A stretch of DNA of 64,000 nucleotides from positions 1,101,447 through 1,165,446 of the forward strand of contig CP030158.1 of NCBI GenBank assembly GCA_003285105.1. Direction: 5' to 3'. Each line of letters begins with the position of its first letter. The stretch's first letter is position 1. The DNA is from Roseithermus sacchariphilus (GTDB lineage Bacteria > Bacteroidota > Rhodothermia > Rhodothermales > MEBIC09517). Of the stretch, positions 51,354 to 56,086 are shown in pieces. A program made the translations under genes and the position numbers. Below the pieces are notes generated by a model. The model was not told the DNA's origin. It made no database searches and worked only from the letters and a program-made list of their open reading frames with translations.

Positions 51354-51443
51354 CCACGCGTCCTCCCCGCTTGCCGTCCCGGCGTGCAGCCGGTACCTTG
51401 TGGCGATGATTCCGTACCCCTCAACGCTATCCTGCCACCTGCC

Positions 51444-52733
51444 ATGCTCTGGCTCGACATAGACCTCGCCCGTCCCTTCCTCGACGACCCCGATGCACTC
51501 CAGGCCCTCCGGCCCCGGACCGACGCCGCCCACCGGGCGGTGCTGGACAAGTCCGGCGCCGGCAGCGCCTACCTCGGCTGGCGTGACCTGCTGCTGCATC
51601 CGAACGATGCCCTGCTGGAAGACATCGCCACGACCGCCGCCGAGATCCGCCGTGATGCCGACGTGTTCCTCTCCCTCGGCATCGGCGGGTCTTACCTGGG
51701 CGCGAAAGCCGTCATCGACGCGCTCACGCCGTACTTTCCCGCCGCCGACGCTCCGCGCAGCGGCCCGGAGGTGCTCTTCGCCGGCCACCACATGAGCGGA
51801 GCCTACCTGCGCCAGCTCCTCGCCTATCTGGAAGGCAAGTCCGTCTACGTCAACGTCATCTCCAAGAGCGGAACGACGCTGGAAACCGCCCTCGCCTTCC
51901 GGCTGGTGCGCCGCTGGATGGAGGAGCACTTCACCGACGCCGACCGCCGCATCATCGTCACAACGGACCCCTCGAAGGGGGCACTCAACGAACTCCGCGC
52001 GAGCAAGGGATACAAGAAGTACGAGATCCCGCCCGACGTCGGCGGACGCTTTTCCGTGCTGACGCCGGTCGGACTCCTGCCCATCGCCGTCGCCGGCATC
52101 GACATTCGCTCCCTCTTCTATGGCGCCCGCGATGCCTGCGTCCGCTACGCCAACCCCGGCGACGGCAACCCGGCGCTGACCTACGCGGCGATGCGCTACC
52201 TGCTCTCCCGCCAGGGCTACCACGTCGAGATCCTCGCCGCCTTCGAACCGTGCCTCAGCAGCTTCGGCGACTGGTGGCAACAACTCTACGGCGAGAGCGA
52301 AGGCAAGCAGCATGAGGGCCTCTACCCGGACAGCCTCCAGTACTCCACCGACCTCCACTCCCTGGGGCAATACGTCCAGGACGGCCGGCGCATCCTGCTC
52401 GAAACCTTCCTGATGCTGGACGACGACGGCGGCGACCTCGTCGTCCCCCCCACCGACCCCGACCTGGACGGCCTCAACTACCTGGCCGGCCAGACCTATT
52501 CGCACATCAACCGCCAGGCCTACCAGGGCACCGCCGAAGCCCACGCCGAGGGGGGCGTACCGGTGATGACGGTCTGGCTCGACCGTCTGGCCCCGGACAC
52601 CCTCGGCACGGCCATCTACTTCTTCGAACACGCCGTGGCGGTCAGCGGCTACCTGCTCGGTATCAACCCCTTCGATCAGCCGGGCGTCGAGGCGTACAAA
52701 AAGAACATGTTCCGCCTCCTGGGTCGCCCCTGA
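51444..52733 (+). CDS. pgi: Glucose-6-phosphate isomerase
   Basis: 429 residues from ATG 51444 (MLWLDIDLARPF); the 60 bases upstream in frame are not conserved. It interconverts glucose-6-phosphate and fructose-6-phosphate in glycolysis and gluconeogenesis. The PGI sugar-isomerase signatures are present: FLSLGIGGSYLGAKAV, VNVISKSGTTLETALAFR, and the C-terminal GYLLGINPFDQPGVEAYKKNMF. Length matches the shorter Gram-positive-like branch (about 430-450), not the 550-residue enterobacterial form. It is the last gene before the candidate replication origin. Confidence 0.95.
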   Translation: MLWLDIDLARPFLDDPDALQALRPRTDAAHRAVLDKSGAGSAYLGWRDLLLHPNDALLEDIATTAAEIRRDADVFLSLGIGGSYLGAKAVIDALTPYFPAADAPRSGPEVLFAGHHMSGAYLRQLLAYLEGKSVYVNVISKSGTTLETALAFRLVRRWMEEHFTDADRRIIVTTDPSKGALNELRASKGYKKYEIPPDVGGRFSVLTPVGLLPIAVAGIDIRSLFYGARDACVRYANPGDGNPALTYAAMRYLLSRQGYHVEILAAFEPCLSSFGDWWQQLYGESEGKQHEGLYPDSLQYSTDLHSLGQYVQDGRRILLETFLMLDDDGGDLVVPPTDPDLDGLNYLAGQTYSHINRQAYQGTAEAHAEGGVPVMTVWLDRLAPDTLGTAIYFFEHAVAVSGYLLGINPFDQPGVEAYKKNMFRLLGRP

Positions 52734-52859
52734 TCCTGCCGCCCGCTTCCCCCCCCTCCCCTTCGCGCCGCCCTGTCTGGCCCGCTTTTCGCTGCCGGAC
52801 AGGGCGGTGGCGCGCTGGCCGGTCCGTCGTCTCTGCGCCCCTCCCGGTGAGTATTCGGC

Positions 52860-53380
52860 CGGTCTGTCCACAACCGTGCACAAGCTGTGGAAAACAGGGG
52901 GATAGACCGGGTAAAACCCACTCGCGTTATCCACATCGTGGAGGAGGCGTGTATAACCCGGCCCGTCATGCACGGCTCGTCCACGCTCATCCACCGTGTG
53001 CATAGCGGTGCACAACCTGGAGCGGATTTTCCCTCTGCGGGTGTGGATAGCGGTGGATACGTGGGTAACCCGGCGCGCATCGCGGCAAACACCCGCTCCA
53101 GCGACTTTCTGCCGCCCCCTTCCTGTGGATAGATCCGGGGAGAAACCGGGCGGTTTATACACAACCCCGGATTTGAAATGTGCATTTCTCCGCTATCCAC
53201 ATTTCCACAGGCCCTACTACTACCTGCTACTTTCTTTTTTACTCTTATTAAAAATAGTTAGGGGCTGTGGAGGGCCATCGGTCCACCCCTGTATATCGGT
53301 ATAACGTGGTGTATCGATCAGGGATCGGGATATATTACCATCCGGTTATATACAGGAAAACAGCACCGTTTGAGCGGAAC
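52860..53380. other. Candidate chromosomal replication origin (oriC)
   Basis: The 655-base gap 52734-53388, between convergent pgi and comEC, contains many DnaA boxes. Perfect TTATNCACA boxes: 52927-52935 and 53155-53163 (plus strand). One-mismatch boxes: 52886-52894 (minus, TTTTCCACA), 53042-53050 and 53124-53132 (minus, CTATCCACA), 53193-53201 (plus, CTATCCACA). Two-mismatch boxes: 52864-52872 and 53201-53209. The AT content rises sharply at 53228-53260 and 53290-53360, unusual for this genome. Box clusters and AT-rich unwinding sequence together are characteristic of bacterial origins, whose boxes bind DnaA-ATP. dnaA itself is not in the window. 52734-52860 holds nothing recognised. Confidence 0.82.
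53193..53260 (+). other. Basal unwinding module: box pair, GC block, DnaA-trio, AT tract
   Basis: In order: DnaA box CTATCCACA (53193-53201), a second box ATTTCCACA sharing its first base (53201-53209), a short GC block GGCC (about 53210-53213), CTACTACTACCTGCTAC (53214-53230), and a T/A-rich tract to 53260. The middle run is the complement of the 3'-GAT-5' DnaA-trio repeats described in Bacillus subtilis, at the same side and spacing. This is the single-strand-loading element of the origin. Confidence 0.75.
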
Positions 53381-53388
53381 ATCGTGCC

Positions 53389-55851
53389 TCATCGCCATGG
53401 CCGCGTGGTGATGCGTCGTCCATCGCTGCGTACCCAGACGGCACCGTGGTCCGCGGTGGTCACGACGGTAGCGCCGGCATGCCGCCATCGGTCCAGCACC
53501 TCCGTGTCGGGCAGGTCGTAGCGGTTGGTCCGGGCCACGCTGACGACGGCAAGCGGCGATCTGCCGTGGGTGACGTGCCGGACGAAGGCGGCGGTGCTGC
53601 TCGTGGCGGATCCGTGGTGAGCCACCTTCACCACATCGCTGGCCAGCAGCGGACCGTAGCGGTGGACCATCTGCCGTTCGGCCTCGGCTTCGGCATCGCC
53701 GGTGAAGAGCAGGGCCGTCTGCCCGTACTGCACCCGCAGCACCACGGAGCCTTCGTTGGCGTCTTCGAGCCGGGCCAGCGTCGGGGTGGGGGAGAGAACC
53801 TGCAGGCGCACGGTGGGGTCGAGGTCGAGCGTCATGCCTGCCCGCAGGATCGCGTCGGGGACGTCGAGGCGGTCGAGCACGCGCCGCATCTCGGCGTAGA
53901 GGTCGGACGCTCCGGCGTGTCCGGGGTGGTAGACGGTTCCGACATCGACGTGGTGCAGCAGCGTGGGGAGCCCGCCCAGGTGGTCGCTATGCGGGTGGGT
54001 GACGACGACGGCATTCAGCCGGCGGATGCCGTAGCGGTGGAGGTGGGCGCGGAGGGTGCGGGCACCCCGGTCGGTGTAGGCGTTGCCCGGCCCGGTGTCG
54101 ATCAGGACATGGCGGCGGTTCGGGAGCGAGAGCAGCGCGGCATCTCCCTGGCCGACGTCGAAGAAGACGACCTCCAGCGCGGGGCGATGGGCGGGGTGGA
54201 GGGCCACGGTCCACGTGCCCAGCGCGGCCAGCAGCAGCGCCCCGAGGAGTAGCCGCCAGCGCAGGCGCGGCCGCGGCCACTGGGCCAGCGCCCCCAGCGC
54301 CAGAACGAACGCCCCGAGCAGCCAGCCGGAGGTCAGGTAGCCGTCGACGGCCGCAAAGGCGAGCCGGCGTGCCCCGGCCGCAGCCAGCGAGCCGAGCAGC
54401 GCCTCGAAGACCCCGGCGGCCGCTCCGAAGGCATCCGCCAGCGCGGCAGGGGTCAGCAGCGTCAGCAGGCCCGCCGCGAGGGTCAGGGCCGTCAGCGGGA
54501 TGGCGGCGAGGTTGAGCAGCAGCCCGGCGAAGGACGCATACCCGAAATGGGAGAGGAGGACCGGCATCGTGCCGAGGGTGGCCGCCATCGAGGCCGTCAC
54601 GAGCCCCGCAACGCGCCGGCGCAGGCGGCCCCGCCGTAGCGCCTCGGGCATGGCCCGCCACAGCACCGGGGTCAGCGTGATGAGGGCCGCCACCGCGGCG
54701 AAGGAGAGCTGGAACCCGGCCTCGAAGAGCGACGCCGGCCGCATCAGCAGCAGCACGACGCCGGCAACGCCCAGCAGGTTCAGCGAGCGCGTCGGCCGCT
54801 GTACCAGCACCGCGCCGATCCAGAGCCCGGCCATCACCACGGCCCGGACGACGGAGGTGCCGGCGCCGGACAGCAGCGCGTAGGCCAGCAACACCCCGAG
54901 CGTCACGACGGCCCGGATCCACTCGGCCGTGCGCCAGCCGAATCCGCAGCGCAGCAGCGACGGCCGCAGCAGGTGGTAGAGCGCCAGCCCGATCAGCATC
55001 ACATGCAGCCCGGAGATCGCCAGCAGGTGCAGCAGGCCCGTCCGCGCAAAGTCGTCCTGCACGTCGCCGGCCAGGGCCTGGCGGTTGCCGAGGATGAGTG
55101 CCGTGAGCAGAGCCTGCGTGGTGGGCCGGGGAACGTGTTCGGCCAGGCGGCGGCGGACGACCTCCCGGAGCGTGACGGTGGCGTGCTCGATCGGCGTGCG
55201 CCGGCGTCCGAGGACCTCGAGCGCGTCGGCATCGGTGAGCGTGACCAGGGCGTGGATGCCCCGGCGGCGCAGGTACGCGCCGTAGTCGACGTCGGCCGGA
55301 TTGCGGCGCGAGGGGAGGGGGGCGAGGGCCGCCGTCAGGCGGAGCACATCGCCCCGGGCCACGGGCGGATAGCCGGGGGGCGGCTTCCACGAGGGTGCCG
55401 CCAGCGTGACCTGCACGCGGCCCGCCCGGGGCACCGCCACTCCACCGGGGTCGGCCACGGTCACGTCCGCCAGGACGAGCCGGGTCCCGATTCCGGTAAG
55501 GATGGGGTCGTCTGCGACGCGGCCGGTGAGCGTGAGCGGGCCGGCGGCCGTGCGGTCGGCCAGGTGCGCGACGTCGTGCGCCGGTAGCCGGCGGTCCAGA
55601 TCGTACCGGAGCCCACCGAGCGCCAGCAGCAGCAGCCCGGCGGCCAGCGCCCGACCGAGCGGCCGCAGGTGAACCAGACGGCGGGAGCGCCCCGTCCCCA
55701 GGCCGAGCCCTCCCAGCCCGGCGACGGCCAGGCCCGCCCAGAGCCACCACGGAACGGACACGGTTGCGGCCACCGCGATCCCGCCGGCCAGGCAGGCCGC
55801 CATCACCAGCGCCGGATAGGCGTGCGGGGTCGGGAAGGTGTCGGGACGCAT
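53389..55851 (-). CDS. comEC: ComEC/Rec2-family DNA uptake channel
   Basis: 820 residues from ATG 55851 (MRPDTFPTPHAYPALVMAACLAGG); longer in-frame starts lie in unconvincing sequence. An N-terminal region with transmembrane segments and an OB-like domain (about 90-200, LTLTGRVADDPILTGIGTRLVLADV) precedes the polytopic Competence domain (LLHLLAISGLHVMLIGLALYHLL, GAGTSVVRAVVMAG, EAGFQLSFAAVAAL). The C-terminal metallo-beta-lactamase-like domain (about 560-815) has DVGQGDAALL, VVVTHPHSDHLGGLPTLL and KVAHHGSATSSTAAF. The complete architecture suggests a working channel for transporting one DNA strand across the inner membrane during natural transformation. It borders the candidate origin. Confidence 0.93.
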   Translation of the reverse strand: MRPDTFPTPHAYPALVMAACLAGGIAVAATVSVPWWLWAGLAVAGLGGLGLGTGRSRRLVHLRPLGRALAAGLLLLALGGLRYDLDRRLPAHDVAHLADRTAAGPLTLTGRVADDPILTGIGTRLVLADVTVADPGGVAVPRAGRVQVTLAAPSWKPPPGYPPVARGDVLRLTAALAPLPSRRNPADVDYGAYLRRRGIHALVTLTDADALEVLGRRRTPIEHATVTLREVVRRRLAEHVPRPTTQALLTALILGNRQALAGDVQDDFARTGLLHLLAISGLHVMLIGLALYHLLRPSLLRCGFGWRTAEWIRAVVTLGVLLAYALLSGAGTSVVRAVVMAGLWIGAVLVQRPTRSLNLLGVAGVVLLLMRPASLFEAGFQLSFAAVAALITLTPVLWRAMPEALRRGRLRRRVAGLVTASMAATLGTMPVLLSHFGYASFAGLLLNLAAIPLTALTLAAGLLTLLTPAALADAFGAAAGVFEALLGSLAAAGARRLAFAAVDGYLTSGWLLGAFVLALGALAQWPRPRLRWRLLLGALLLAALGTWTVALHPAHRPALEVVFFDVGQGDAALLSLPNRRHVLIDTGPGNAYTDRGARTLRAHLHRYGIRRLNAVVVTHPHSDHLGGLPTLLHHVDVGTVYHPGHAGASDLYAEMRRVLDRLDVPDAILRAGMTLDLDPTVRLQVLSPTPTLARLEDANEGSVVLRVQYGQTALLFTGDAEAEAERQMVHRYGPLLASDVVKVAHHGSATSSTAAFVRHVTHGRSPLAVVSVARTNRYDLPDTEVLDRWRHAGATVVTTADHGAVWVRSDGRRITTRPWR

Positions 55852-56086
55852 GGGCCGCTTTATTTCGACCCTGGCTAGACACCGGCCCCGCAGAGCCATA
55901 ACTTGCGCGGTACGCGGCCGGCGCTTTGCGAACAACCCATGAAACCCCGGGTCCTCCCCGAACCTTGTTCTTTGTTTGCGATTCCAGCCCGTTAGTTCAA
56001 CACGGCCGTCGTCGCGGCGGCTGTGTCTTCGTAGTACGCGGCGCCGTGCTCTCTGCGGCGCCATCGGTTCGAACGGACGCTGTGTT

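Follow-up and report, generated by a model that had tools for sequence, protein, structure and literature searches.

The window, meaning the whole stretch of DNA that was analysed (64,000 nucleotides), covers bases 1,101,447-1,165,446 of a genome that consists of one contig of 4,807,988 bases. Two genes in it, pgi on the plus strand (51435..52733; PF00342, E=2.4e-25) and comEC on the minus strand (53389..55980; PF03772, E=2.3e-53), turn their 3' ends towards a gap at 52734..53388. Both genes were assigned by Pfam and by synteny, and their start codons are approximate. They are the same flanks that an earlier note on this DNA had named when it proposed a chromosomal origin between them, and the downstream gene nusB was also confirmed by Pfam. 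With pgi and comEC in convergent orientation, the gap is flanked by gene ends on both sides, and the DnaA boxes found in it therefore belong to neither gene's promoter. A 14-nt inverted repeat, 93% complementary, is located at 52768-52807, 35 nt past the pgi stop codon; it is possibly a transcription terminator that would shield the candidate origin.

The most prominent feature of the gap is an array of DnaA boxes (52864..53209), the putative DnaA-oligomerisation region, which includes two-mismatch boxes and eight boxes with at most one mismatch, at 52886 (-), 52927 (+), 52948 (-), 52997 (-), 53042 (-), 53124 (-), 53155 (+) and 53193 (+). Two of them are perfect, namely TTATCCACA at 52927..52935 and the TTATNCACA box at 53155..53163, which reads TTATACACA, both on the plus strand. 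The box at 52886 reads TTTTCCACA, and those at 53042, 53124 and 53193 all read CTATCCACA. A ninth box with one mismatch (TTATATACA, 53346..53354, + strand) lies apart from the array, in a second AT-rich patch. The two perfect and four one-mismatch boxes listed in the earlier note were all recovered with the mismatches given there, and the boxes at 52948, 52997 and 53346 are additional to them. In the 64-kb window, 15 boxes with at most one mismatch were counted, nine of them inside the gap, and shuffled versions of the window held a mean of 5.55 over their whole length. The motif is not generally enriched in the genome, since 409 such boxes were found in 4.808 Mb and the reversed control gave 436. 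At this genome-wide rate only 0.04 boxes would be expected in the 470 nt that hold nine (Poisson P(≥9) ~7e-19), which bears out the earlier judgement that chance clustering is very unlikely. The note had also named a better box cluster at another locus as grounds for giving up the proposal; in the 1.26 Mb of the genome sampled, the runner-up 500-nt stretch held three boxes. The gap is moreover the sole place in the whole genome with two perfect boxes within 1 kb. The sharp rise in AT content described earlier is real as well: GC drops from ~0.70 to 0.38 at 53210-53269, and of all 100-bp stretches in the window the least stable is in the gap.

Unwinding module of the gap

At its comEC-side end the array passes into an ordered module, which from 53193 reads CTATCCACA TTTCCACA GGCC CTACTACTA, the last element being three CTA repeats, and continues into 40 bp at 27.5% GC. 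The first DnaA box of the module, CTATCCACA, occupies 53193..53201 and is indicated by both the box scan and conservation, and the second, ATTTCCACA, which is an 8-bp repeat of the first, occupies 53201..53209 and is indicated by conservation; both are on the plus strand. They are followed by the GC-rich spacer GGCC (53210..53213, + strand), whose position is kept in relatives, and by three contiguous DnaA-trios (53214..53222), conserved across the order, which read CTACTACTA on the plus strand and form 3'-GAT-5' repeats on the minus strand. The AT-rich segment at 53223..53262 is, by composition and stability, the predicted DNA unwinding element, and an additional CTACTT is found at 53227-53232. 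The published definition of the basal unwinding system (BUS) comprises a DnaA box with at most two mismatches, optionally in tandem, a spacer of 0-16 bp with a peak at 10-13 bp, and at least three DnaA-trios with a central A and the consensus 3'-GAT-5' (PMC8287927). In the gap, the box CTATCCACA is accompanied by ATTTCCACA, 12 bp separate the end of box 1 at 53201 from the first trio at 53214, and the trios number exactly three in a contiguous row, which is the minimum length. When a rule of the published type was applied to 1.26 Mb of the genome, the site in the gap received the top score, and strict patterns for the unwinding module matched the gap alone in the whole genome. The gap holds a BUS-type module, and unwinding at this place is predicted from its architecture.

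The BUS of Bacillus subtilis oriC (incC) is experimentally established. The module described here resembles it in the tandem DnaA boxes, the short GC-rich spacer, the TAG-type DnaA-trios of the same strand sense and the AT-rich unwinding element that follows them (PMC8287927, PMC6669920, PMC10316083). It differs from the B. subtilis BUS in that dnaA is not a neighbour of the gap, boxes 1 and 2 share one base because they repeat at 8 bp, only three contiguous trios are present, and an inverted box faces the module over the unwinding element in a genome with no DnaD-family match. The oriC of Escherichia coli likewise combines an array of DnaA boxes with an adjoining AT-rich unwinding element, apart from dnaA. 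However, its BUS score is weak (PMC8287927) whereas that of the gap is strong, and its two box groups stand on one side of the unwinding element, whereas here a box is also found on the far side.

Conservation in Rhodothermales and beyond

The earlier note had suggested comparing the gap across Rhodothermales, and in most of the order's genomes this comparison located the module at the corresponding position, after pgi and often beside comEC. The comparison was made at the level of the order, as no second member of the family was found among the genomes searched. Relatives of pgi were detected in 80 of the 99 genomes. Among the 29 that could be read on both sides of the gene, many had 6-20 boxes in the 700 nt after pgi as against 0-3 in the 700 nt before it, and in most of the 29 the count was high after pgi and near zero before it. 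A comEC match lay within 1.5-2 kb, directly or one gene on, in most of the remaining genomes. The module aligned across the order as NNNTCCACATNTCCACA, a GC-rich spacer, CTACTACTAC and then AT-rich DNA. In the wider class, the strict pattern CCACATNTCCACA-N2-6-CTACTA was found in 24 of 245 genomes, with one copy in each, and its reversed control in none. Among the genomes of the order examined, a box cluster at pgi was absent in G003, G017, G020, G009 and f9, and in f9 the module was found away from pgi. In both f7 and f9 the module has a UspA-like gene as its neighbour, and in three genomes from other families within the class it stands beside dtd and purM, the gene names being taken from a reading of the translations. 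At the other extreme, G072 and G090 carry 13 perfect DnaA boxes within 700 nt after pgi, which is far above other members of the order.

Facing box and helicase loading

Beyond the unwinding element, an inverted DnaA-box core, TGTGGA, faces the module on the minus strand (53266..53271). It is a weak box, with three mismatches to the 9-mer, and it was recognised from the inverted repeat I7 and from conservation. When 53 genomes were selected on the left module only, 24 of them had TGTGGA 44-67 nt beyond box 2, compared with 0.64 in shuffled sequences and 0 of 53 in the opposite orientation, although the number of independent cases is lower than 24 because close relatives are not independent. 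Of 394 genomes in the phylum, 41 contained the full pattern TCCACA-N2-6-CTACTA-N25-55-TGTGGA, almost all of them members of the class and two from outside it, and the reversed control gave three. A stricter form, TCCACA-N2-6-CTACTACTA-N22-52-TGTGGA, gave at least 117 matches across 84,980 species, where roughly 18 would be expected by chance. At 55 of the 80 loci examined among the matches listed, many of them in other phyla, a dnaA match was found within ~1.5 kb, and the arrangement therefore marks true origins in other phyla too; on the frequency of the facing box these loci are uninformative, because that box was part of the selecting pattern. Such dnaA-adjacent origins of Nocardia, Streptomyces, Clostridium and Gemmatimonadota (L243-L322) share the facing-box pattern with the gap and lie mostly 0.6-1.5 kb from dnaA, whereas here dnaA is 230 kb away. 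The predicted facing box is conserved across the class. It may be a new part of the origin, as a literature search of partial coverage found no description of it. Two loci stood out among the matches: L306 (Ktedonobacter racemifer) and L322 (Dictyobacter aurantiacus) hold 25 and 18 boxes, respectively, in 500 nt, and their two arms, each with trio-like repeats, are almost symmetrical; no dnaA match was found in the 8 kb examined around them. Between the facing box and comEC, a short motif GTATATC(A/G)G was observed at 53289-53320 of the window, and roughly a dozen relatives have it 75-115 nt past the module, TATATC being present in 15 of the 53 genomes compared with 2.2 in shuffles. Another origin protein might bind to this motif, or it might, in relatives, be part of a promoter.

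The set of helicase loaders encoded in the genome bears on how such an origin would work. A DciA match is present, no DnaD-family match was found in the genome, and DnaC/DnaI-type matches above the cut-off comprised only dnaA itself and one long protein. For these reasons DciA, the only known loader type found in the genome, is probably the helicase loader, and since a DnaD-family match is missing from the genome, a DnaD recognition pathway is not to be expected. DnaA, whose gene lies 230 kb away, would bind the box array at 52864-53209, and the box pair at 53193-53209 would guide a DnaA-ATP oligomer over GGCC onto the minus-strand trios at 53214-53222. By analogy with the BUS architecture of B. 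subtilis, DnaA on the trios would open the AT-rich element at 53223-53262. The helicase would then be loaded, probably with DciA, and two forks would depart. The far edge of the opened stretch is probably marked by the conserved inverted box (53266-53271).

A more ambitious role can be proposed for the facing box. The loading of the second helicase is regarded as unsolved in the field (PMC10201434). In a two-sided origin, DnaA would load from 53266-53271 onto the plus strand as well, and would in this way place the second helicase. The spacing and orientation of TGTGGA in the 53 genomes, the class-wide recurrence of the facing-box pattern and the combination of DciA with no DnaD-family match all speak for this possibility, but no distinct row of trios is seen in the right arm. 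Of 80 right arms examined, just three did better than 95% of their shuffles, T-periodicity across the order is weak, and in the window the right arm shows one trio-like step and its box has three mismatches. An inverted box across the unwinding element, as a mirrored BUS would require, is present in the form of TGTGGA at 53266-53271; neither a run of opposite-strand trios nor a completely mirrored BUS, in which both strands would carry trios, is supported by the same counts. We consider loading from both sides unlikely, and it is equally doubtful that the far-side box is a functional second DnaA landing site fixing the place and strand of second-helicase loading in a lineage with DciA and without DnaD. 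The reading preferred here is an origin with one BUS-type module and a conserved facing box.

Chromosomal position and the dnaA locus

On the chromosome, dnaA (0.924 Mb) lies ~230 kb from the gap (1.1545 Mb), in agreement with the earlier statement that dnaA is not adjacent. To relate both places to strand composition, an origin and a terminus were fitted to G versus C at third codon positions, with leading and lagging genes treated separately, in 20-kb samples along the genome and a denser stretch around the candidate, together about a quarter of the genome. The gene calls used for this fit were approximate and followed a simple composition rule. Requiring a G-richer leading strand told origin from terminus, which the fit without this constraint could not. 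The best-fit origin was at 1.147-1.149 Mb with a quasi-95% interval of 1.147-1.168 Mb, and the fitted terminus, at ~3.38 Mb, was near the opposite side of the chromosome. This genome is high in GC and has a weak skew, and the bootstrap range of the origin (1.03-1.19 Mb) was wider than the likelihood interval. The gap was only 1.1 log-likelihood units below the best fit and dnaA 44.6 units below it, by which the dnaA locus is rejected as the origin. The earlier expectation of a skew minimum at the gap is borne out in the form of this strand-corrected change-point, whose interval covers 1.1545 Mb. The fit was also made for two complete relatives. For G010, a single contig of 4.50 Mb, it placed the origin exactly at the pgi gap of that genome (2.394 Mb). 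For G016 (3.26 Mb) it placed the origin at 27 kb, the pgi gap being at 32.4 kb with a delta of 2.6, so that the change-point was about 5 kb off the gap, within a range of 3-7 kb, and dnaA near 1 kb had a delta of 11.6.

Sites of the parS type cluster near origins. Three perfect parS sites (TGTTTCACGTGAAACA) were found in the whole genome, at 1,188,316, 1,188,375 and 1,193,936, which is 34-40 kb from the gap versus 264 kb from dnaA; all other matches genome-wide had two mismatches and were at control level. An origin at or near dnaA, with the cluster in the gap acting as a datA-like DnaA-titrating site, could appeal to three boxes immediately upstream of dnaA, one perfect and two with one mismatch (L001 2733, 2744 and 2962), but it conflicts with the skew fit and with the position of parS. 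No BUS-type module was found near dnaA in the 1.26 Mb scanned, the dnaA stretch included, the strict patterns match the gap alone genome-wide, and a titration site is not expected to retain an unwinding module, so that this explanation is highly improbable. The boxes upstream of dnaA, outside the window at G000:C1:925318-925555 (L001 2733-2970), are as expected for DnaA autoregulation. As a separate observation, two full Bac_DnaA domain genes at separate places were found in six of ten relatives searched (G012, G024, G029, G034, G047 and G058), and one such gene in the genome of the window.

DnaA boxes do occur in promoters, and a uspA-like gene starts downstream of the module in several relatives, but a DnaA-regulated promoter or an unrelated regulatory region is the least credible reading of all, as the gap between two convergent 3' ends has no gene to drive, promoters are not characterised by such a box density, by trios or by an unwinding element, and the module persists beside neighbours as different as pgi/comEC, uspA and dtd/purM.

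Taken together, the gap combines an intergenic cluster of DnaA boxes, an easily melted AT-rich element adjoining them (40 bp at 27.5% GC) and a location at the replichore skew change-point (with about a quarter of the genome sampled), and nearby parS sites add support, although they do not define an oriC. The proposal of the earlier note is upheld by the box cluster and by four independent tests, namely the skew change-point, parS, the module and its conservation, and the pgi-comEC gap is predicted from these elements, with a probability of roughly 95%, to be the chromosomal replication origin. The DnaA-trios, the parS sites and the facing box are additions to what that note had described. The origin placed here is of a known type and was unannotated until now. 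In a literature search of partial coverage, no paper joining the DnaA-trio with Bacteroidetes and no Rhodothermus origin were found; a computed prediction for relatives may exist in DoriC. The feature is ordinary but important, and it was found from sequence alone. It locates the origin in a lineage where the position of dnaA gives no guide, and a short signature, consisting of tandem 8-bp boxes, a spacer, CTA trios, an unwinding element and a facing box, marks the origin in related genomes, fragmented ones included. In bacteria apparently without DnaD, the facing DnaA box also offers a defined base change by which one answer to the question of second-helicase loading could be tested.
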